Shown piece after piece: positions 1-20,456 of a stretch of 64,000 nt of DNA. Position 1 is the stretch's first letter; every line of letters starts with the position of its first letter. The position numbers and the translations under genes are program-made. This DNA comes from Craspedostauros australis (Eukaryota; Bacillariophyta; Bacillariophyceae; Mastogloiales; Achnanthaceae), in assembly GCA_026770025.1 (NCBI GenBank), contig JAMXDE010000010.1, forward strand, positions 1,178,001 through 1,242,000, given 5' to 3'. The notes below the pieces were generated by a model, which was not told where the DNA came from, searched no databases, and saw nothing but the letters and a program-made list of their open reading frames with translations.

Positions 1-1141
1 TGGGGATGAAGAAGATGGCTGCGATTCGGCCTTCTCGGGTTTGGGGTGCGAAGTCGCCAAATCCGATAGTCGATGCCGTGATGAGGCCGTAGTAGATGGA
101 ATCCATGACAGACCAGCCCTCTAGCAGACCAATGATGGTGCCACCACCCGCAACGACGATCAAAGATGATCCGACGAGGCGGATGGCCTTGCGGATGCTT
201 GCGAAAGGCCTGGGCTTCGATAATGCATCGTCATCGTCACCGCAATCGTCACCGATGACGTTGCTGACTTTCATTTGCCCGACACCACTTTCGCTTGCTC
301 CTGTACCTTGCGCCATCTCAGAAAGGACATCCTCCACCTCATGCGAATCGCCACCGTTGGTCGTATCATGCTTGAATGCTTTCGTGATGTCCGGCATCTT
401 TTCGTACAATCCCAGGATGCGCTTTCGTCCCTGTTGTTTGGCAACCTTCAGAGCGTCATTCTCAATCTCATTCAGCTTGGAACCAATCGCCGCCACGGCC
501 GCACCCAGCAAGGCGATGCCGGCGAATCCAAACCCGCACGTGAAGATCTTGGACAGCCAGGACGAGGACGGCCATACATCGCCATACCCCACCGTTGAGA
601 AGCAGACACAAGTGAAGTACAGGGCATCCACGACGGACCAGGACTCCAGCACCCGGTGGTACGCGATGACGCCGACGATCATGTAGAGCACCAGCCCAAC
701 GAGGCCTTCCTTGAATTGCATCGAAGCGGCATTATCTTCAGCGTCGGTTGTCGGTAGACTGCCATCGGCATTTGCACGTGCCAGAATGACGCGGCGCAGA
801 TCCGGAAATGGGATGGTCACTACGTAGGCCGTGTTGAAGAGGAACCGCCGCAGCAAACGTCTTCCGAAACGCCAACCTTTCGAGGCCAATCTGGAAGGGG
901 CGGATCCTGGTTCTGAATCATCGTTTGCAGCGGCTCGGTGCACGAGCGGAGCGGCCATCCGCGTGAGGAAGTCATCATCGTGATGATGTTCTGCCGGTGC
1001 GTCCAATCGCTGCGGGAACAGTGGGCTGCGTACAATCGCTCCATGCGAGCTCAGCGGAGTTTGGAATGCCGAAGATGGCACCGCAGCAAGGAGAGTGAGG
1101 AATGCGAGCTGTAGATATAAATGAACGGTATGTCCCATCAT
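1..1141 (-). CDS. Two-pore domain K+ channel with plastid-type presequence (3' end cut by window)
   Basis: The frame is open from an ATG at 1141 down to the left edge (380 codons), with no stop and no intron needed. Two K+ selectivity filters are in frame: TVGYGD at about residue 183 and TIGFGD at about residue 358. Each is flanked by hydrophobic helices (for example GLVGLVLYMIVGVIAY before the first and IALLGAAVAAIG after it). This is the 2-pore, 4-TM layout of TPK/TWIK channels, which carry K+ leak currents. The N-terminus is a signal peptide (YLQLAFLTLLAAVPSSAF) ending in SSAF-QTP, a variant of the diatom plastid motif ASAF-AP, so a plastid or thylakoid location is inferred. The C-terminus, where plant TPKs carry EF-hands, lies outside the window. 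It is divergent from the next gene, with 417 bp between them. Confidence 0.88.
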   Translation of the reverse strand, partial: MMGHTVHLYLQLAFLTLLAAVPSSAFQTPLSSHGAIVRSPLFPQRLDAPAEHHHDDDFLTRMAAPLVHRAAANDDSEPGSAPSRLASKGWRFGRRLLRRFLFNTAYVVTIPFPDLRRVILARANADGSLPTTDAEDNAASMQFKEGLVGLVLYMIVGVIAYHRVLESWSVVDALYFTCVCFSTVGYGDVWPSSSWLSKIFTCGFGFAGIALLGAAVAAIGSKLNEIENDALKVAKQQGRKRILGLYEKMPDITKAFKHDTTNGGDSHEVEDVLSEMAQGTGASESGVGQMKVSNVIGDDCGDDDDALSKPRPFASIRKAIRLVGSSLIVVAGGGTIIGLLEGWSVMDSIYYGLITASTIGFGDFAPQTREGRIAAIFFIP

Positions 1142-1558
1142 GTATACTTGGTCATCATCGACTTTGGATTTATTGGTTGTTCTGTTGGCTGATGTGTTGA
1201 TTGATTGGCGATCCGCGGATGCCATCGGTGTCAACAATACCATGTGGTAGTTGCGACAAACATATGAAAACATATTATGTTGAAAACATTACCTTGATAA
1301 TCATAAATCCGTATCAAGGCAACATATTTATTAATTAACGCAACCCCCAAATCCAAACAACCTCCAATCTGCCGCCAGATCTTGTGGTTCGAAGCCGTTC
1401 CTCCATTCATTCTCCCCACGCCGCACAGTCAAGGAACAATCAACGTCGAGTAGATCGTAGGTCGCACATAGTTCACACATGCAAGCACGAGCAATGGATC
1501 AATAACACTTCCAACAAAACACGCCGCTGCATTAGGACTCACATTTACAATTAGGACC
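1142..1558. other. Divergent intergenic region
   Basis: This separates the K+ channel (-) from the oxygenase-like gene (+). It is AT-richer around 1260-1340 and must hold both promoters. I see no clear TATA element, repeat or RNA gene. Confidence 0.5.
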
Positions 1559-3004
1559 ATGGCAGAAGAGATCGAGCTGAACTTTCGTCTGGATCGCGAA
1601 GGCAGGACAGCTCTCGGCTGCGAGACCGCGAGTACGAATACAAGTACAGCTGCCGATGACAAATCCAAACCAGCACCAACACTGAAATACGAACCCAAGA
1701 CTGTGCTCACGGAATTAGCACTCGATAAATACTCGCACGATGATGCCGATGGTCAACCATCACTCATGGACGACCTCCTGTTCGATGCAGAGATCGCCGA
1801 TTCTGGCCTGATGCCGAGGACGTTCTGGATGTCGGCAAATCCACAATCCAAGCCACGATTTACTATGGAACGGTACGCGCTGGATGTCTTCCATCACCAC
1901 GTACCGAAGGGTTGTCTCTACGATCCAGACAAGTCAGGTGCCGAATGGTGGGTGCAGATCCGACCCTCGCCGGAAAAGATCGGCCGGTACGCTATGCATG
2001 CTTCAGGCGATAACGATACGAACAAGACTGATGGTAATGATGCTGCTGCGGACAAGGACATCGCGAAGACAGGCATATCGTTTCATTGGGACAAAGACGA
2101 GGACCTTCGTCTGCTCACCGGCGGCACGCTCTATATCCACCCTCATCTCAGCACCGTCACGTATTTGACCGATCTTGGCTGTCCCACAGTTGCGATGAAC
2201 TGCAGGGTCAACAACTTCACGGGAGATTGGATCCCACCCTCACATGCCAAGAGCTGTTGGAGTTGGCCGAAACGGGGCAAGCATCTGTCATTCGATGGTC
2301 GGTACTTGCATGCCGCGCTGCCCGATGTTATGAAACCAAAGCAATTTGAGCATCAATGTGCTTTCGTTCCATCCGTGGATGCCTTGCACGACAAAAAGAT
2401 GAAGCGACGGCATCGCCGCGTTACCTTCTTGGTCAACATCTGGCTCAATTATATCCCCTACGATGTCAAACCGTTCCCGCATCTCATGGTCACCAAGATG
2501 AGCGGCCACGAACAAGGCGCAGCGAAGCGGCTGGGGTTTGTGGATGCCTTGAATCCAGCAGACGATGCCGAAATCCCCGTTCATGGCAAACCAACAACCG
2601 TCGAGATGCCAGCGGATCAATCGATGGAGGCAGATGATGATACTGCAAATCAGACAAGTAGTCGCACATGGCCAATGGGGGATTCCAACTCGTCGGAATT
2701 CATTCGAATGTGCATACCCATCCAAACAATCCAGGGAGGTTCCGGAAGGGGCGCCGACGTCCAGGTGAATTGGCAGGCACCAACGGATGATACTTTCCAT
2801 CTCTTCAAACAGGAGGCTGGCCAAAAGAGATCGGCCGCAGAATCATCGGAGGAGAATGGCGATACGGGTACTGTGGACACTGCACCTCCTCCTGCTGGTG
2901 ATCCTATTGTTTCAACCAACAATGCAACTTCTGACAGCACAAAAGGCAATGCCACCCAGGATAAGGACCAAGAGGCAAGCAACAAGAAACAAAGACAAAT
3001 GTGA
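1559..3004 (+). CDS. 2OG-Fe(II) oxygenase-like protein (function unknown)
   Basis: A single-exon frame of 481 residues starting at an ATG (context GGACCATGG). The middle part has H-W-D at residues 176-178 (ISFHWDKDEDL) and a distal His at residue 251 in SFDGRYLHAALPD. That gives the HxD...H metal triad of the double-stranded beta-helix 2-oxoglutarate/Fe(II) oxygenases, with a beta-rich stretch between (GGTLYIHPHLSTVTYLTD). The distal Arg that would bind 2OG cannot be assigned by eye. The N-terminal 60 and C-terminal 120 residues are polar and probably disordered. No signal peptide or membrane segment is seen, so a soluble cytosolic or nuclear protein is likely. The substrate is unknown. It converges on the small gene at 3094-3555. 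Confidence 0.72.
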   Translation: MAEEIELNFRLDREGRTALGCETASTNTSTAADDKSKPAPTLKYEPKTVLTELALDKYSHDDADGQPSLMDDLLFDAEIADSGLMPRTFWMSANPQSKPRFTMERYALDVFHHHVPKGCLYDPDKSGAEWWVQIRPSPEKIGRYAMHASGDNDTNKTDGNDAAADKDIAKTGISFHWDKDEDLRLLTGGTLYIHPHLSTVTYLTDLGCPTVAMNCRVNNFTGDWIPPSHAKSCWSWPKRGKHLSFDGRYLHAALPDVMKPKQFEHQCAFVPSVDALHDKKMKRRHRRVTFLVNIWLNYIPYDVKPFPHLMVTKMSGHEQGAAKRLGFVDALNPADDAEIPVHGKPTTVEMPADQSMEADDDTANQTSSRTWPMGDSNSSEFIRMCIPIQTIQGGSGRGADVQVNWQAPTDDTFHLFKQEAGQKRSAAESSEENGDTGTVDTAPPPAGDPIVSTNNATSDSTKGNATQDKDQEASNKKQRQM

Positions 3005-3093
3005 CTAGACTCTAGATATTAGCTACAGCATATAAAGGCTATGATGATCTAGTCTCGACTGGCTATCTAGCGGTATTGAGAATAGCGTTGCAG

Positions 3094-3555
3094 CTATGGC
3101 TTCCTCGCAGCTTGCGACGATCGAAAGAGGCTGTACAGGACCGAGATTCCGCATACAGCCGTCTCGATGATCATGGCGTTGCCGTCTTTCGACAGAATTG
3201 CTAGTGATGGGTCCAAGACTGCCATTGCAATGTTCGTGATCAAGAATGCCGAGGCTGCCACAGCTCCTGGGACCCATTCCTCGGCCGTGATGATCCGCTG
3301 CTTGATGCTGATTGCTGCCAATGCCGACAGCAACAGAAATGTCGTGGAAAACATCACGTCATGGCCGATCACGGACCCGCTCAGAAAAACCAAGCCAAAG
3401 GCATCGTCGTTGTATGCATCCGTCGTCTCGTCGTCGATCGGATTCTTCTCGAACAACGTCATCAGCGATGGCGCTGCCCGTGGATCCACGGCGTAGTGTG
3501 CAACATGCCGTGCACCGGAATGCGCCACAAAGGCGACGATGCTGTCTCGAAGCAT
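3094..3555 (-). CDS. Small multi-span membrane protein, hypothetical
   Basis: A 153-residue frame with an ATG start at 3555. It has three hydrophobic stretches typical of membrane helices: DVMFSTTFLLLSALAAI, GAVAASAFLITNIAMAVL and AMIIETAVCGISVLYSLF, with short charged linkers and a basic C-terminus (SSQAARKP). I do not recognise a family. Its stop lies 89 bp from the convergent stop of the upstream gene. Other frames overlap it, but only this one shows an amphipathic/hydrophobic protein pattern. It could also be the last exon of a longer gene. Confidence 0.5.
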   Translation of the reverse strand: MLRDSIVAFVAHSGARHVAHYAVDPRAAPSLMTLFEKNPIDDETTDAYNDDAFGLVFLSGSVIGHDVMFSTTFLLLSALAAISIKQRIITAEEWVPGAVAASAFLITNIAMAVLDPSLAILSKDGNAMIIETAVCGISVLYSLFRSSQAARKP

Positions 3556-10773: not shown

Positions 10774-11384
10774 CGTGTCCGAGGGGCAATGAATGAGCAC
10801 AACACGTGTGGAAACAAAGAGTGGTCAAACTGAGGCTGACCCTGCGCCTGGCAAATCGATCGATACTGGAGACGGCAGAGTAGCGAGGGTGCTCGTACGA
10901 CGGGTATGTTATGATCGTTTACTCTGTTCTACTCTACTCTGTTGTAGCGTGAGTTTGTGAATACGGTGATAAGTACTTTGTTCTCCTCGTTCTCTTACGT
11001 ATGAGTTCTTCCGGAACCGTGGTTGCCGGATGCACGGAATCTCCAGCCACGATCCTCCTCACTGTTCGTGACGAATGTTGGTTGGTGCGCGATGACAGTG
11101 GTGACAATTTGATTCATCCGTTGCGCTGTTGTCTTTGGTTGCTTCGATCACGTTCGCGACTGGGGCGGCACAAGAATGACCTTGGCTACAACGCCTTATC
11201 TAGAGCGAGAAACAATCAGAGAGACTGTTGGAATGATTTCGGTGCAGAGTCCTATCCCGATGCTCTCTTCTGTCCAGCAAGTCTCTTGAAATTCGCTTCT
11301 TTGAGGATGTTGGACTAGAGGGAGGTGCTGCAGCTGCCATGATGACAAGGAGCAGCTGCATCCGAAGATGAGAACAACGCTGTG
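10774..11384. other. Intergenic region upstream of NAD kinase
   Basis: This reaches to the left TA of the mobile element. Short open frames here have no coding character. It holds the NAD kinase promoter; no motif stands out apart from short tactct repeats near 10919-10940. Confidence 0.4.
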
Positions 11385-11386
11385 TA

Positions 11387-11439
11387 CGAGGTGCAAATCG
11401 TAGTTGATGCACTCACGATAACACTAGTTGTGGAGTTTT
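11387..11439 (+). repeat. Left terminal inverted repeat
   Basis: It begins CGAGGTGCAAATCGTAGTTG just after TA (11385-11386). It matches the reverse complement of 20190-20242 with four mismatches. Confidence 0.93.
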
Positions 11440-12969
11440 GTTGAGTTTTGTGGGCAATGACTCGTGTTAAAGTAGACTAAAATAGAGCACATCCAACACC
11501 ATCCAAATTACTGCTTATGATGTTATATCTCAACACCAAACCATTTAAAATTAAAACTAGACAGTTCATTCGGATGCTTGGATATCGTTTATTCTGAATA
11601 CCAAAGTTAAATTTGTATGAACTTTATTTTTAATGTCGTTTTGGCTTGCTGTCAGTCAGGTGGTGGGTGCAAAAAAGTCTCGATGGCACCATGCTGCCCT
11701 ACCTTCAGCACCCATGATCATCATTATCATCCCTGGAATTTTCACAATCTGCGCACCACATTAGCTCCAGATACCCCCCATCTATCCACTCCATGAAGAT
11801 CCTGCGCAGATAGGCTCATCTCATACTCCAAAGTCTCCCTGCACTGAAACGCAGAAATTTCGAACATCCGATTCCAACACAGATGCCGTTCGTATTTGGA
11901 TCCGTATCTTGTCGGTACGATCCTTGCAGCTCCTCCACATGCCCCTCATGCGTTCTCACATTCTCAGGTGACACACTGATGTGTTCAGAATGGGTGGGGC
12001 GCTCATACCTCCAAAGGTACACCTCCATGTGATGATGTCATCATGCTGTTTTTCCGACACCCAAAAATATCCCTTTCGTGTGCATCCCAGGCTGAAGCCT
12101 CTTCCAGACCATATATGTGCAGGATACTTCGACATGGCCATCTTGAGTTGATTCCGAACACATCTTGAGTGGGTGGCTTGGCGATCTGGGTGACTTGTGA
12201 ATGGCACCCATCACCAGCGAAGTCACCTGATGTGTCCGCCGCCACCCACCAAAAAATTCTTGCCCTCCACTTGTTTCTTGCGGAGGGCGCCTTCCAGGCC
12301 ACCCCCGACCCTAAAACTTCGTGTGCATTTTCATCGTATCCTCTTGGATGCATCTTGTCCCTCAATAGTCGTTGGGTGGGCCTGTACATTCCAGGCAGAG
12401 ACCATATCCAACGAGCAGATGTTCCTCCGAATCGTGTCGTGTGCGAGTGGGCCTGCCTCAGCCCCAAATCAACCAAGATGGCACCCCCCTCTTGCTCATT
12501 CACCAAACTTTACATGGCAGTTCCGCCTATGCCCTCAGATCTTGCACTGGACCGCTGGTTGTCACAGTGCCGATGATGCCGTTCGGCGGCGCTTGAGGAG
12601 TTTTGTTGTGTTTCTCCATTGTCGTGTTGTTGTGTTGTGTTTGGTGTTCTCAAACAGTTTTTGCTGTTGGGGGCCATGGAGATTAACCACAATTCTGCCG
12701 AATGTGCCAACCAATGAGAACACTTTTCGAGTCCCGAATTGCACCTCCATTCCACAACACCAAAACTATCCTCACAAAGTGGACAACGGAAACACTGCAC
12801 ATCTGGGACGAGCTGCTGTTGATTCTCTGCTGCTTGTAGTTATTGCTTGTACAACAATGTAGAATGACTGTGACCCTCCACATTGGAGAGAGTGGACGAT
12901 ACGATGCACCTTGTGACCATCCAATGTTGCCCATGCCCCCTGTGATGCGCCGCGCCGTGCTGTGCGTTG
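11440..12969. other. Left interior of the element, no confident gene
   Basis: Sequence between the left repeat and the transposase. Frames of 70-220 codons on both strands lack ATG starts and recognisable domains. The only protein-like signal is the Cys/His-rich stretch at about 12690-12830 on the minus strand. The AT-rich part at 11470-11640 adjoins the repeat. Confidence 0.4.
12510..12830 (-). pseudogene. Possible zinc-finger remnant
   Basis: A minus-strand open stretch with no ATG that reads VQCFRCPLCEDSF followed by WRCNSGLEKCSHWLAH. This is a CxxC pair, then C-x6-C and H-x3-H, a plausible zinc-binding module. A TAA lies just upstream in frame, so it is either an internal exon or a decayed gene. 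It overlaps nothing else convincing and sits inside the element. Transposon-borne zinc fingers are common, but the family is not recognised. Confidence 0.25.
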
Positions 12970-15654
12970 ATGGCTGGTGATGCGATGCGCTGTCTCGCTG
13001 TCCTCGTGTGCCTGGTGTGCGTCGCGACGCGTCTTTCAACTCAACTGCAGCCTCCATCAACACAATACACATCATCCTCCATTCACTGCAGTCTGCACCT
13101 TGCAAGCATGTTGTGCGCTGGTGATTGTGTGAAGGTGGCACCTCACACGGACTCAAATGACAAGATCCGTGACCTGGGCGTATGTCCTGTTGAGCTTGCA
13201 GTGAAACAGACCACGGATGGCGCTACAGTCAAACGCGATGGGCCTCTTGCATCAGGAGAGGTGGCAATGGTCATGGTGACCCCAGTGATGGGGCAGAGCC
13301 GAATGTATGTTGTTCGTGAGGATCTGTGCACACCACACAGCCTTGTTACCTTCGCACGGACTCGCACTGCTGGTGGCCTTGCTAAGCCTTCCCTCCTTTC
13401 TCCCCAACATGACTCCGTCGCTGCTGCGCGTGTCAACAACAAGGCTGAGCCCCCCACACCATCCCCAACTACCACGGAATCGCAAGAAGCCAAAATCACA
13501 GCTTTTCTCGAGGTCTCGCGGCGTCAGAAAGCAACAGCAATCGCCCAGCTCACAAAGCAGATGAAGAAAGGTGCAAAAACAAAAGGATGGTTGCGAAAGG
13601 ATGGAGGCCATAGTATTGCTAAGCCTGGTAATCCTAGCAAACGCCTTGACAAAGAAGACAATCGGAACTACACTGTTCTCTATTTCAATTTGGGCGGGAT
13701 TCCAGCACATGCAGAGTTGATCGCCCATGCATGGGGTATCAACCGCACCACAGCGGGACGCAACATTGTGAAATTCCAAACAGAGACGCTCAAATGCAAG
13801 AAGCGAAGCGACACAGGCAGCAGCATCTTCACCTACCCCACCAAACAACGACATCACTTCACGCAGCGTGCAGCCTTTGCAAAACAACTACGTCTTAAAC
13901 ATCCAGACCAACAGTTCAAGAACAACGAAATCGCTTCTGCCTATGCCTCTGCTTCGCCTCAAGAGCTGGCATCCGCAAAAGTGCTGTCTGAGTTGTGGTT
14001 GGAACGTGGTCCCTTCCTGCAATTTGAGCACCAGGATGTGTTGCGATGGTGCAATGGCGCACTCTTGTGGGATGGAATTGCTTGGAAACTGGCAGGCAGC
14101 GGAAACCCGCAAGTCGTTGGTCCGAAGTGTATCCGCAAATTCGTCATGGGATTGGAAGGCAGTGAGTACCGTTCTACAACAATACTCCCTCTGATCAATG
14201 GCACCACTACAGCAAAGCGCGACATCTGGGCTAAGGACTTCTGTGTGTTCTGGGAATCGGCTCAGCTCTTCAAGAAAGTGCAGGTTGTCCTTGTCCACAT
14301 GGACGAAAAGTGGTTCTACTCCATTGTCGCTCGCAAGCATCTGAAACATGTGCCCCAGATGGGAGTTAAGCCTGTGAAGCAGACTGTGCATCACAAGTGT
14401 CACATTGACAAGACCATGGCAATTGCATCAACAGCATTTGCCCCAACAAACAACCGCATTGAGAAAGGAGGAAAGGCGTATCGGGTGAACTTCGAACGTG
14501 TTGGGCGCATGGTCCCAGCGCAGAAGAATACGTACAAGCGAACTTGGGTCTCGCCAACCAAGTACAAGCACCTTCCTGATCCCACGAAAATCTCTCAGGA
14601 GAAGGGTAAACTGTACTTCCAAGCACTGGAGATCACAGGCAGCAAGGAATCAGTTGGTGCGCCTGATAAGACCAAGCCAAAATACAGCCTCAAGACATTC
14701 TTCTGCGAAAAAGAAATCCCTGCACTGGATTCGCTCGCCAACAAAATCAAGGCCGAAACGGGCAAGAACGTGGTGATTCGGTACCAGATAGATGGCGCAG
14801 GGCCACACAGAGACACGTAACTACTCAGGTTCATCAACGAGGAGTTCGACAGTCGTGGATGGCATCTACGATTGCAACCATCAAATTCTCCCATCACGAA
14901 TGTGAAAGACGATGCGATATTCCCAGCGATGTCAAAGCACGTGTCAGCATACGAAGGTACGCACCATGGAAGCCGATTGCTTACCACTGACGCATTGTCG
15001 GATGCTTGTGGAACCTGTTGGGAGCAATTTGGGCTGGACAAGGTGGCATGTGCGTATGTTTGCCACCATCAGATTGCCTACGCAATTTGTGCTGCGAAAG
15101 GAGGTGACGAATTTGTGACAGAGAACAAGGGACTGAGCATGAACGTGCGGAAACAAACGTTCACTGAATTTGACAAGATCGGCAACAAGATCGGCGTTAC
15201 TGTGTCTCACACGGACTTCGCGTTGGAGGAGGATGAGGCAACCAACGATACTGCCAAGAAACCAGCTGCAACAGGCAACAAAGGCAAATCAGCTGGCTTC
15301 AAATTCGCCAAGCCCAACATCAAAGGTATGTACGATGATGTGCTCAAGGTGATGGCTGTCAGTGGTCTGCAATGTCTTAAAACGAACCTGCCAACAACCA
15401 GCAGCCTCATTCCGTTGCTGGCGAAGCAAATCGTTGTGACAACCAGAGCCAATGAGGAGGCTGAGCAACAGAAGAAAGATGAGAAGAGAAAGAAGCAACC
15501 CAGCAAGAGCAAAGCCGACATCATTGAGCCTCGCAACAACAACAGCAAAGCCGAAGCAGCACCCACCATGAATACAGTCAAAGTGGCCTGTCTGGCTGGC
15601 AAGACCGAGCATCACAGCAAAGCAGAGGAGGATACCAATACAGCAGAGATGTAA
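12970..15654 (+). pseudogene. Tc1/mariner-like DD(~39)D transposase with one in-frame stop
   Basis: One reading frame of 895 codons from ATG 12970 to TAA 15654, broken only by TAA at 14818-14820. The catalytic motifs are in order: VHMDEKWF (first Asp, codon 14302), YQIDGAGPH (second Asp, codon 14791), then after the stop QPSNSPITNVKD (third Asp, codon 14908). The last two Asp are 39 codons apart, as in plant-type mariner DD39D enzymes, whose matching motif is SPDLNVLD. A helix-turn-helix-like segment (IAHAWGINRTTAGRNIV) lies near residue 255. The N-terminal 200 residues are extra and unrecognised, and the C-terminus is lysine-rich. No frameshift is seen, so the stop looks recent. The stop separates two catalytic residues, so the product would be inactive without readthrough. 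Confidence 0.85.
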
Positions 15655-15655
15655 C

Positions 15656-15668
15656 TGCAAATCGTAGT
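15656..15668 (+). repeat. 13-nt copy of the TIR core
   Basis: TGCAAATCGTAGT is identical to positions 6-18 of the terminal repeat and lies in the same orientation as the left repeat, directly after the transposase stop. It could be an internal transposase-binding site or chance. Confidence 0.4.
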
Positions 15669-15864
15669 AGTAGTAGTATATGTTATAGGCACACCTGTGA
15701 TTGGAGTGCCTATGTGCGCATCGTCTGCTTGATGGCATGGAGGATTGTGATGTGATGTGTGGTGTGGTGTGTGATGTTTGTTTTGTGTGTTGTGATGAGT
15801 GATGTGATGAGTGGTGTGATTTTTGTGACGCAGACCGATATTTTTGTGTCGTGAATGGTGCGCA

Positions 15865-15960
15865 TTGTGGAGCCATCGTGTTGTGCAGCCATCGCGTCGT
15901 GGAGCCATCGCGTCGTGGAGCCATCGCGTCGTGGAGCCATCGCGTCGTGGAGCCATCGCG
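15865..15960 (+). repeat. 16-bp minisatellite, six copies
   Basis: Six tandem units of TCGTGGAGCCATCGCG. The last four are identical and the first two are slightly diverged. Confidence 0.95.
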
Positions 15961-16426
15961 TTGTGTCGTGCCGCTCTGATCGGAAAATTCCAGCCGAACC
16001 ACACAGAAAATACGCTCCAAGGCCCCAATTGCGTCGATCGGAGCGCCAGCACAATCGGTGTGTGTTGCACAAACCAATCGAATGGCAAAGGCTTCTCTTT
16101 GTTGGTACCGCACTCGTACATCTGTACCACATCGTACCATGCCAGTACTCCACTTCCTTTTCATCACACATGTGCAACCCTCACGATCTTTGCTGCCATC
16201 AAGTCCACGCGTCTGTACTCGTCACTGGAGCACCAACGATGCATCCTCTGATCATTCATCTCTGCTCATGCTCTGCCGACAGTACTGCCACTAGCACAAT
16301 CGTCATGTATTGGCGGAGCAGAGTAGAATAGAGCAGAGCGCAACAAATACACACCACGCAATGCTCATATGCTTTACTATGCTATGTTGTGATGTGCTAG
16401 TGCAGCTTCTATAATATGTTACATAC

Positions 16427-19400
16427 TCATACACTAAGAGCACAGTCCACTACTCCATGTACTGCTTCGGGCTTGCTAGATGGAGCAGATTGGACTTCCT
16501 CTCTTCGGGGTGCGTCGCCATTGGACGCCTCTTCGTTGATTGTCACGTCCTCCTTGCCATCATGTTCGCATTCGTTCCGATTGGCCTCCTGTCCTGTTTG
16601 TGTTGATTGGATGCTTTGCTCCTTCGCTGCAGAAGGGTCCATCTCTTCACTGCCATCGTGTGTTGACGAAGACCCCATTACCTGACTGGGATCATCTTGT
16701 GCTGAACATGATCGAGTCTTTGCGCTGGTCTCATCTTGCGGAGTGGGCACCACAGATGCAGATGCTGTCTCCAAAATTTTGGTTGTTTGTGAAGACTTGT
16801 TGGTGCTGGCATCAGCTTCTTTCGTTTGTGCGTTGTCTCTTGCACGTCCCATGGTGCTGAGAACCCCAATGGTGGCCAACGATGCAACAGCCAAGGCCAA
16901 TAGCTGTGATGAGGTGATGTCCACCTTCTGTTGACCTTTGCTCTCCTCAGACACCACTGTGCCTTGTTTTGCCTGTGAGTTTGTGGCTGTGGCCGTCGCA
17001 GATTGGGCCGGGTTGTCCACGACTTCATAGGGATCCATCTTGTGGCACACAATGACATCGCCGCTCTCACCGTCGTACACTTCGAAGCTCGTGCTGTCGT
17101 AGTTCACAAGGTCGATGACTGGTGCTGCACCAGCTGGGTTGGTGGTAGACTTGTCGGTGCCAATGCTCTGTGCCGAATCGCGTGATGCAGGGGCGTCGTC
17201 TCTGCCACCAGTCCATGGATCCTTGTACGAATGCTTCTCCTCCATGGAGTTGCTGATAACGATGACACTATCGGAATGACTCTGCGATGGTCGATTCTGC
17301 TGGTGATCATCATTACCCTTGTTGTCACCGGAGCCGTGGTCATCTTTGTCATCGAGCACAATGATCTCTTCGACATTTCGCGAGCGGGAGGCGCTCTCTG
17401 CTGGAGGTTGTTGCTCGATGGAATAATTCCCAGGTGACGCACCACCCTGGCTTCCGTGGTTGGTGACATCAATTGGGTCATGTCCAGTAGGAGCATCACC
17501 AACAGCATTGTCGCAATCCTTTTCTGCATTCATCAACGACTTGGTCATGATCCCTGCGCCAACCCCAAGGACAACTGCTGCACCTGCAGCTACTCCAGTC
17601 GAGGCGTTCTTGGTGACATCGTCCAATGACGACTTCTCTGAGCTGACCGACTTGTGGGATGAGTTACACTCGATGTGACCAGTCGAAACAGTTGCTGATG
17701 CTTCTTGAGCGGCGTCAGCAACATCGTTTGTTGAGACCGCAGACGCGTTGTCGGTGCAGCTACTATCGACAGGATTCGAGTTGGCGCTTGCGCTCGTCAC
17801 CACGCTGACTGCAGGGCTGCTGTCAGCTGTGACTTTGGCTGTGGTCGTGGTTTTGCCTGCAGCTGCCACAGATGCCGCCGTAACAACTGCTGCGGCCACG
17901 CCAATAGCTGCAGTGGTTGTCAATGCGTTGGTGTCATCATCCTTGTTGCTGTTGTCATCTTTCCCGAAGCCGCGATCGCTCTGCGTTGTGGATGGGCTCG
18001 ATTGGTCTTGGTGCCCGATCAGTGCCCCAACCTCTTCCAAGTCAGAGTCCAACAGGCTGTTCAAGACGGACTCATTGAACGATGAAGGGCGTTCATTTTC
18101 CGCAGAGCTGGAAGACAACTTCCTGGTGGAAGCTGCACCAGATCTCACCGACCGTTCATTCTCGGAGACGGTGAATTCGGAGGCTGTGGATTGACTGCTG
18201 TTCGTTCCTCATGCAGGCATGAGAACGCCCATGCCCTGGACGACTGGGATGTCATTGGATGAACGTGCGGTTTCCACGAGGTGGCCGACTATCACTGGGT
18301 TGGCTGCACCGGCGATCAGGTCTTGCTTTTCAGATCCCGGTTGACACGCGTCCTTGCTGGCAGATTTGTCCTTGTTGCTGGTTTCGTATGAACTACCAGC
18401 AGCCAGTTCAGCCGCAGCAAGGTCCATGATGTCTTTGAGAGGAGCCGGAGGAGGCCTGCTTGTCTCTGTGAGAGGTTCGATGCCTTCTCTCTGCATCTGC
18501 GAGCGAATCATTGCTGCAATCTTTGCCTCGTAGTCGGATGATGTCGAAGAAGAGAGGTCGACGGCACAGACCTCACCATTCTTGACACCTTCGGAACGAT
18601 TCGTGTAGACATCGCTGGATGCCAGGCTGGATGTTCCACTTGCACTGCTCTCTGCCGACGGACGTGGCTGCTTGCTGCCACTGGCGTTCTGCATTGTTTC
18701 CGTTGCTGTTCCACCAACGGATGATGATGTGTCTCATGTGTTGGAAGATGATGCAGCTGCTGCTGCCACGGCCCCAGAAATGAAATGACCGTCGCTGGTG
18801 CTGCCAATGGAACGGTTGGAGCGTGACTCTCCGTTCGAGTACGTCGAATCGTCGTAGTATACCGATCCGCTTGACAACGTGTTGTTGCACCATGTAGACC
18901 TGTGTGACAAGCTGGCTCCTGTGATCACGCTTGGTTGGCGGTGTTGGTGGAATTGTTGCGTGCTGGACGAGTCTGATTCGTTGAAGCGGACCGACTTTTG
19001 CGATCCTTCATCTATGACCAAAACGGCCCGCACTTCAATGTTGTCGGTCTGTTCTCCGCTGTCGGTAGCTTGCGTCATGGTCACAGGTGGGGGTTCGGCA
19101 TTTCGTGCCAATTTCTTGGCCTGCTGTTGATCGTTCGACTGCTGGTCAGCCTCAGACCCAGAAGACAAGGATGCGGAACACGCTGTTTGTGCCGGTTGCC
19201 GCTTATTTGGAGCAAGCACACGGTTCGCAACGTATGCTCCCGCTGGAAGATCGATGCCTGTTGCAGAGGCTGTTGGCGACGCGATTCGGACCTGCATCAT
19301 GCTGTTGTCGCGTCACTGGTTGGAGACGCGATCCGTGACGTCCATGGATGTGGCCTGACCATCATGATTGCTGTGAATGCTTGAGATGGTGCTCTTTTTG

Positions 19401-20029
19401 GTTCTGGCGCTTGCATTCTTGCTTTGTCCAATCCTGGATGGTGATTCCTTGCCAAGTGAATTGTTGTAGAACGTTGGCATCGACTGAGAGGCAGCAATTG
19501 CACCAAAGGCTGCCACCGCCTGCTTACCACGCATCTTTCCGACCGAAGTAGGTGCAGGGATGACAGATACCGAACCTTCCACCTCTTTCCTGGACTGTGC
19601 CACAATGGCAGGGTTGCTTCAGGCTTGGTTCTCTTCGACTTGGACGGAGCTCGACGCCACCGAGCATGCGCTGGCTGTGCCATGTTGAGTGGAGGGTGTG
19701 GACTTGACTGATGTGGTTCCGCTGCCTGCCGTCGTGGTATTGCGTTGGTCGACGGATGTTGCGGTTGACGTTGGTGCTTTGAGCACAGTGGGGGTGGTCT
19801 CCGGTTGAGCGTCCGTAGTTTCCCCACCCTTCTCTGGCTTGGATGCATCATTGCCGGCAGCCTTTCTTCCAAACATCGTCCCGACAAATCCCAACGTCGC
19901 CAACACAAGGCCCAGTTTGGCCCCTTGCTTGCGCTGCTGCTGCGATGGCAAAGATGACACCGTAGCATCATGTGTGCTCGTTGTTACAGATGAGGTGATT
20001 GCAGACTTGGCAGTCGAAGCTGAAGCCAT
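16427..20029 (-). CDS. Long Ser/Thr/Ala-rich frame interrupted by four in-frame UGAs (cargo of the element)
   Basis: From ATG 20029 a single minus-strand frame runs to TGA 16427-16429 (about 1,200 codons; the frame is open to 20122). The only interruptions are TGA at 19619-19621, 19313-19315, 18734-18736 and 18209-18211. There is no TAA or TAG, no frameshift, and the composition (Ser, Thr, Ala, Asp, Gln) is the same on both sides of each UGA. I do not recognise a family. Visible features are four Ala/Gly-rich hydrophobic stretches of about 20 residues (near 19865-19921, 17850-17915, 17535-17605 and 16847-16925) and KSVRF, a PP1-docking-like motif, at 18983-18997. The product could be a multi-selenocysteine or readthrough protein, a pseudogene with recent nonsense changes, or several short genes. 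The start lies about 160 bp inside the right TIR. Confidence 0.45.
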
Positions 20030-20133
20030 CGTTTGCGTCGCAGAGATAGTGGTCGGCTGCTCCCCTGGTGACGTGGAATCCGTTCCCTGTGACGTAGAAG
20101 ACAGATCAGCAAGAGCAAACACGAAATAACTTT

Positions 20134-20145
20134 AAATATTATATC
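20134..20145 (-). promoter_or_regulatory. TATA-like element
   Basis: The minus strand reads ATATAATATTTA about 105 bp before ATG 20029, between the right TIR and the UGA-interrupted frame. It is the only obvious AT-rich core-promoter candidate there. Confidence 0.3.
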
Positions 20146-20189
20146 GCCGTTTCTCTCAAAAGCAAGCAAACCAGTGGCAACAAGGGGCC

Positions 20190-20242
20190 AAAACTCCACA
20201 AGTAGTGTTATCGTTGGTGTATCAACTACGATTTGCACCTCG
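20190..20242 (-). repeat. Right terminal inverted repeat
   Basis: The inverted partner of 11387-11439 (49/53 identical), followed outside by TA at 20243-20244. Confidence 0.93.
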
Positions 20243-20456
20243 TACGAGAACGAGCAGCCAGGTGGCGAAGAAAAGAGAGTTTGGAAGTCGCGTGGCATGT
20301 TGCATCGGGTCGAAGGACTGGTTAGGACGGAATGGAATGTACGTACGATACATCTGCGGTGGAGCACGTCATCTGATATTTGTGATGCAGACGTCAAGCA
20401 TGGAAACAAGGCCATCCACGATCCCTGGGAACGACCGTATCCCTCATATCTCATAA

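Follow-up and report, generated by a model that had tools for sequence, protein, structure and literature searches.

The 64,000-nucleotide stretch analyzed here (the window; C8:1178001-1242000 of a genome of 74.8 Mb in 90 contigs, which was the search space) contains an 8.86-kb Tc1/mariner-type element with captured host DNA between its transposase and its right end. We consider it very probable that this element is an inactive member of a multi-copy, recently active DD38D Tc1/mariner family in a diatom, and that this family captured host genes serially. The reading is carried by the ends of the elements, their TA boundaries, their copies, the matches of cargoes to donor loci, the nesting of captured segments, and a cargo orientation that is alike in four of the four cargo types. 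We propose that cut-and-paste transposition at TA sites, by the family's own enzyme, would spread a chassis of ~4.8 kb (left subterminal region, transposase, and right subterminal region), into which pieces of the host genome would have been copied on several occasions between transposase and right end. Capture may have proceeded through template switching during repair of the excision gap, and cargo segments may later have been exchanged between elements by recombination.

Boundaries and content of the window element

The 8.86-kb element is real. Its two inverted arms of 57 nt each are complementary at 53 of 57 positions and are separated by 8,748 nt, whereas the runner-up inverted pair in the 12-kb region has only 34 nt at 71%. 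The reading at either end of the element is G-TA-CGAGG. A sequence-only reading of this DNA, which had described 53-bp terminal inverted repeats (49/53 identical) 8.8 kb apart and flanked by TA, is therefore borne out with longer arms. A chance repeat as the source of this pair is ruled out by the copy number of the ends and by a reversed control (see below). The features of the element are as follows, with the basis of each in parentheses.

11385..20244, plus strand: whole element, TA to TA (paired ends, recurrence of both ends elsewhere)
11384..11440, plus strand: left terminal inverted repeat, including one base outside the TA (arm as found)
11413..13003: left chassis, 87% DNA identity to the cargo-free element L053 (pairwise comparison)
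13108..15654, plus strand: Tc1/mariner-type transposase, broken in the window copy (frames, homology, alignment)
14302..14304, plus strand: first catalytic Asp codon, MDEKWF (alignment)
14791..14793, plus strand: second catalytic Asp codon, QxDxAGPH (alignment)
14818..14820, plus strand: premature TAA between the second and third Asp (frame reading)
14908..14910, plus strand: third catalytic Asp codon, SPxTNxxD (alignment)
15848..15965: 16-bp minisatellite, a similar unit of which recurs near capture junctions (repeat scan)
16066..16425, minus strand: remnant of the 3′ end region of the host N-acetylglutamate synthase (NAGS) locus, 83% to donor L044 (donor comparison)
16465..20070, minus strand: fragment captured from host gene A, 91% identical to its donor, L054 on C24 (donor comparison)
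20069..20214: right chassis, 86% to a cargo-free element (pairwise comparison)
20189..20245, minus strand: right terminal inverted repeat (arm as found)

A multi-copy family bounded by TA

The ends and the transposase of the window element recur elsewhere in the genome. A 101-base query from the left end has at least 40 matches (40 scored of 179 candidates), the transposase is present at at least 71 loci (71 scored of 199 candidates), and the right-end pattern, with up to 3 mismatches, has 126 matches versus 0 for the reversed control. TA is found at both ends in all 14 elements that were read at both ends and is the sole boundary sequence that they share; no direct duplication longer than TA was found in these 14, and the flanks shown differ. 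Left-end homology among L001, L003, and L004 begins at the TA, and L002 has TG there. Flanks of L005 to L008 (on C60, C82, C66, and C41) are alike because these copies sit in a larger repeat. Up to ~1.4 kb of flank is common to them at ~95%, the C66 flank being split by some 770 bp, and the mariner copies seem to travel inside the repeat.

Including both TA, 12 other cargo elements measure 8.83, 7.83, 7.70, 9.62, 9.18, 9.32, 8.87, 8.83, 9.61, 9.65, 9.59, and 9.58 kb, and the one cargo-free element measured is 4.77 kb long. Gene A elements on C12, C14, C17, and C23 each have two TA-bounded ends 8.8 to 9.3 kb apart, and, apart from its donor locus, the window cargo is present, complete or in pieces, at ten further places (84 to 96% DNA identity by piece). 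Other copies that match the window element in both ends and cargo, which the sequence-only reading had asked for as support, thus exist.

No insert-free allele was found in the genome, as the joined window flanks matched only their own two flanks. The repeat around L005 to L008 occurs at seven places, two of which were inspected: one carries a truncated mariner end, and the other is uninterrupted but 84% similar, with a continuation that matched nothing else and no link to a filled copy. The TA at both ends is a putative target-site duplication; no empty site was found in the family's own genome. Among 12 pattern matches in viral contigs, 0 were confirmed as relatives.

A DD38D transposase, broken in the window and kept in most copies

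Residues D399, D562, and D601 of the transposase are invariant in 10 of 10 aligned rows, with 38 residues between the last two (DD38D), and the first two are also invariant in a second alignment of 7 rows. In the DDE/D triad of Tc1/mariner transposases, roughly 34 to 41 residues lie between the last two members; the DD38D spacing falls in this range, and the terminal inverted repeats are likewise a trait of this superfamily. None of the curated transposase models scored over its cut-off (HTH_Tnp_Tc3_2 reached E 0.0037 in 1 of 10 rows), NCBIfam gave no transposase match, and a PDB search by sequence returned nothing for a single sequence and one chance-like match (E 0.24) for a profile. A low-confidence structure prediction suggests an RNase-H-like fold of the mariner kind, nearest to Mos1. 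Six transposase homologues were found, one of them named as Fragilariopsis cylindrus.

In the window, the frame that contains the first two Asp residues ends at the TAA at 14818-14820, and the third Asp lies beyond this stop; judged by its frame, the window copy is dead. Of the DD(~39)D transposase frame proposed earlier, the triad stands, with 38 residues, but the open frame does not. Across the family, the frame from the start through the conserved C-terminus is kept in 26 of the 30 best-scoring loci (the exceptions being L009, L010, L014, and L028). Many copies contain a TGA, and its programmed recoding was rejected because in 23 of the 30 fetched loci this TGA, as codon 13 or 23 in the numbering of the query-aligned frame, precedes the start at the conserved ML(R/C)AGDC.

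Four cargo types with candidate donor loci

The donor of gene A on C24 is a 5037-aa open frame without a Pfam family, and the cargo covers only a fragment of it. The corresponding region of the window holds several minus-strand frames rather than one, with 4 in-frame stops relative to the donor frame. The "large extra frame" described earlier was thus correct as extra cargo DNA and not as a single frame. Likewise, a cargo-carrying mariner lineage is supported, but the cargo is not proper to it: it is captured host DNA, its type varies, and elements that look cargo-free exist.

Sister elements carry three further host cargoes on the same strand as gene A: NAGS, the isoaspartate methyltransferase PCMT, and a protein that has both PT and Cys-rich repeats (PT/Cys-rich; D). 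Each of the four types has a candidate donor locus, and no chassis DNA was detected at these four loci at E 1e-3. NAGS in the element matches AA_kinase (E 1.2e-8) and GNAT (E 5.2e-7), and its donor on C24 is an 891-aa frame that scores over the cut-offs of NF003641 and TIGR01890. PCMT (PF01135) is matched at E 1.2e-8 in the element and at E 2.7e-17 in the donor on C2, and the PT/Cys-rich donor on C13 matches PF04886 (E 1.1e-9). Cargo stretches are about 2.4 to 3.7 kb long. The D cargo of C20, used as a query, retrieved its donor, 45 other copies at ≥73% (32 of these at ≥97%), and 97 places at 42 to 51% (143 scored of 420 candidates). These 97 places match the Cys-rich part of D and form a large family, perhaps of surface proteins. 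We claim no outside relative of this part: the 75 proteins found among 7992 scored candidates have, where it is stated, a coverage of 3 to 16% of the query, with a PT repeat domain in most rows.

When the 71 transposase loci were paired with cargo through the match lists of transposase, right ends (100 of 126 included), and cargo, 38 were assigned to D, 9 to PCMT, 7 to NAGS, and 3 to A; 9 were bare (with a right end no more than 2.5 kb away and no cargo in the lists), and 5 remained without assignment, among them an element on C2 with the NAGS vestige and a DDE_Tnp_4 frame. For three of the nine bare loci, the right part was inspected and bore out the cargo-free status. In this pairing, 22 of the listed cargo places have no transposase from the list close by, 38 right ends of the 100 included have no partner, and the right end lies 13.7 to 18.8 kb off in four of the pairings with D, PCMT, or NAGS.

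Two layouts within the family deserve separate mention. The mariner L082 (C2:3608450-3615950) contains a vestige of NAGS together with a DDE_Tnp_4 transposase frame that is probably part of a nested transposon; among the further frames beside it, one of 264 aa may be an additional cargo. On two small contigs, C61:6042-15599 and C75:10260-19831 share an identical layout, in which a transposase is accompanied by two copies of the D cargo, and are perhaps two alleles of one place.

Order, junctions, and possible exchange of captures

NAGS donor positions 366-2735 are present in the elements on C72 and C38, with ends that agree within a few bases. On C43, PCMT 342-3261 lies between NAGS 2734-2086 and NAGS 774-406 (donor coordinates). 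On C20 and C40, PT/Cys-rich 3326-144 has identical boundaries in both elements and is flanked by NAGS 2734-2086 (C40; shorter in C20), PCMT 342-620, and NAGS 500-366. The window type has NAGS 2735-2382 followed by gene A. Because the donor segments are nested, NAGS would have been captured first, then the PCMT segment inside NAGS, and then the PT/Cys-rich gene inside PCMT; in another line, the gene A fragment would have entered a NAGS-bearing element. Captured DNA spans ~400 bp past the NAGS stop and both flanks of the PT/Cys-rich frame, and the captured material is therefore genomic DNA; retro-copied cargo was rejected on the same ground.

All four cargo types read inward from the right end, opposite to the transposase. 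Cargo-free and cargo elements diverge near copies of a unit resembling the 16-bp minisatellite. Of seven junctions that were drawn, some are sharp with few shared letters and two hold 36 to 40 bp without a match in either donor; neither terminal repeats nor a target duplication was seen at any of the seven.

A transposase tree was built from the final 790 columns of the gene with 20 rows, which include 5 of the 18 burst loci and leave out L049. Elements with NAGS and elements with D fall together in each of two distinct groups of this tree, and the starred branches require at least two changes for D and at least two for NAGS. Since the D elements retain little of NAGS and have the D junctions in common, exchange of cargo between elements appears to be the simplest reading of these few rows.

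Tests for selection on cargo

The ratio dN/dS between element NAGS copies is 0.34 to 0.45, similar to that of the transposase (0.35 to 0.43), versus a neutral expectation near 0.7 from 150 draws in which the observed changes were distributed randomly. The observed value was matched or undercut in 0, 1, 0, 0, 0, and 0 of the 150 draws for transposase pairs, 0, 0, and 0 for host-element NAGS pairs, 2, 1, and 1 for element-element NAGS pairs, 5, 4, and 10 for gene A pairs, and 16, 0, and 24 for D pairs, the 0 being the pair of host and C20; in pairs with a host sequence, constraint on the host gene itself also enters the value. By these draws NAGS resembles the transposase, and A and D are nearer the null, though not all are evolving freely. 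The figures point to earlier constraint on NAGS in the elements. Aligned codons of three NAGS copies contain no in-frame stop. Frame breaks were read in three copies (seven NAGS loci are paired with a transposase), and each of the three lacks 14 bp near the 5′ end and has a 1-bp indel further on (two different places), so that these copies would not now encode full-length NAGS.

Competing explanations

Constraint of this kind raises the possibility that cargo is functional and kept by selection, with element-borne NAGS, and perhaps a PCMT fusion, helping element or host; eight copies do have a 307-aa frame that fuses the NAGS N-terminus to the PCMT segment. We consider this unlikely, given the lesions in all three NAGS copies examined, the stops and mostly near-neutral values of the A and D copies examined, and the D burst (the 32 copies at ≥97%), which multiplied though its one copy read, C20, has frame breaks. 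A broader version, in which the family is an exchangeable cargo platform in a eukaryotic nucleus (one orientation, one site, own transposase, segments recombining between lineages, and NAGS selected while mobile), is at present speculative, and we regard it as unlikely; if true, a transposon would have carried and spread a working metabolic gene.

Simple nesting, in which each cargo arrived as a separate transposable element inserted into a mariner, seems to occur in places: the element at C2:3616695 holds a DDE_Tnp_4 transposase frame, probably from a nested transposon, and transposase and cargo are 11.8 to 13.8 kb apart in three pairings. As a general account it is very improbable, because all four cargo types match same-genome loci that lack chassis DNA, because the drawn junctions lack the repeats and duplications of an insertion, and because a later cargo takes the place of earlier captured DNA (NAGS 775-2085 is absent around PCMT), unlike in plain insertion. 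We give hardly any credence to the idea that the donor loci are element-derived copies settled in the host. In its favor, the C13 PT/Cys-rich locus is 91.5% identical to the C40 cargo, while the C20 query matches its 97 distant places at no more than 42 to 51%. However, the 891-aa NAGS donor frame extends past the captured part, the gene A cargo is a fragment of a far longer frame, and the donors are contiguous and free of chassis DNA, whereas elements join several of them. Serial capture of host DNA by a transposase-bearing mariner thus remains our preferred reading.

The host genome

The silicon transporter family PF03842 has 88 matches in this genome, spread over many contigs, and 14 control genomes gave none above the cut-off. 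Of the 32 best rows, 28 span most of the model without a stop. Such a number of silicon transporter matches is unusually large. Together with the F. cylindrus transposase homologue, these matches make it very probable that the host is a diatom.

Comparison with known systems

Capture by cut-and-paste transposons has so far been described mainly from non-autonomous elements; what appears to be new is that elements retaining a transposase of their own captured identified host genes one after another. A literature search that covered few subscription papers and no preprints found no account of diatom mariners that carry a transposase and have captured host genes serially. Telomere-bearing elements of ciliates are reportedly protist Tc1/mariner transposons with extra frames, and we know of no nested host-gene capture in them. 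One genome here holds cargo-free, full-cargo, and nested stages, candidate donors, and a very recent burst, so that the order, junctions, and fate of captures can be read. Mariner-type elements of 8 to 10 kb with captured genes can evidently still multiply, and we offer this diatom as a place to test the lasting usefulness of captured genes.

In the accessible parts of two reviews, the word mariner is absent from the main text of one on plant transposon gene capture (PMC13317346), and mariner is not mentioned in one on giant transposons (PMC6431247). PMC7017206 cites a thesis about the Tc1-mariner elements of another diatom, Amphora acutiuscula. Several systems share traits with this family. 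Turmoil-1 of Caenorhabditis elegans is a DNA transposon that has a transposase and two transduplicated coding sequences, but it belongs to the Harbinger superfamily, holds its cargo within long terminal repeats, and has one complete copy (PMC2572040). Non-TIR MULEs with Kaonashi ULP1 genes are likewise a DNA transposon family with a transduplicated host domain gene, but of another superfamily and with one captured domain named (PMC13317346). Mariners of algal viruses have a common 5′ transposase part, TA, and differing 3′ cargo proteins (an endonuclease, a methyltransferase, or Fanzor) and are single-copy in virus genomes (PMC3627910), whereas the present family is nuclear and multi-copy, with cargo matched to host loci. 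The nearest systems, together with these viral mariners, are Pack-Mariner and other Pack-TYPE elements of rice and maize, which combine mariner ends with captured host gene fragments from several loci per element and are non-autonomous by definition (PMC8903248). The present elements share the captured host fragment between terminal inverted repeats but not the absence of a transposase, the frame being kept in most of the loci compared; in contrast to Pack-Mariner as described there, cargo adjoins an intact transposase in many copies, and later captures lie inside earlier ones.
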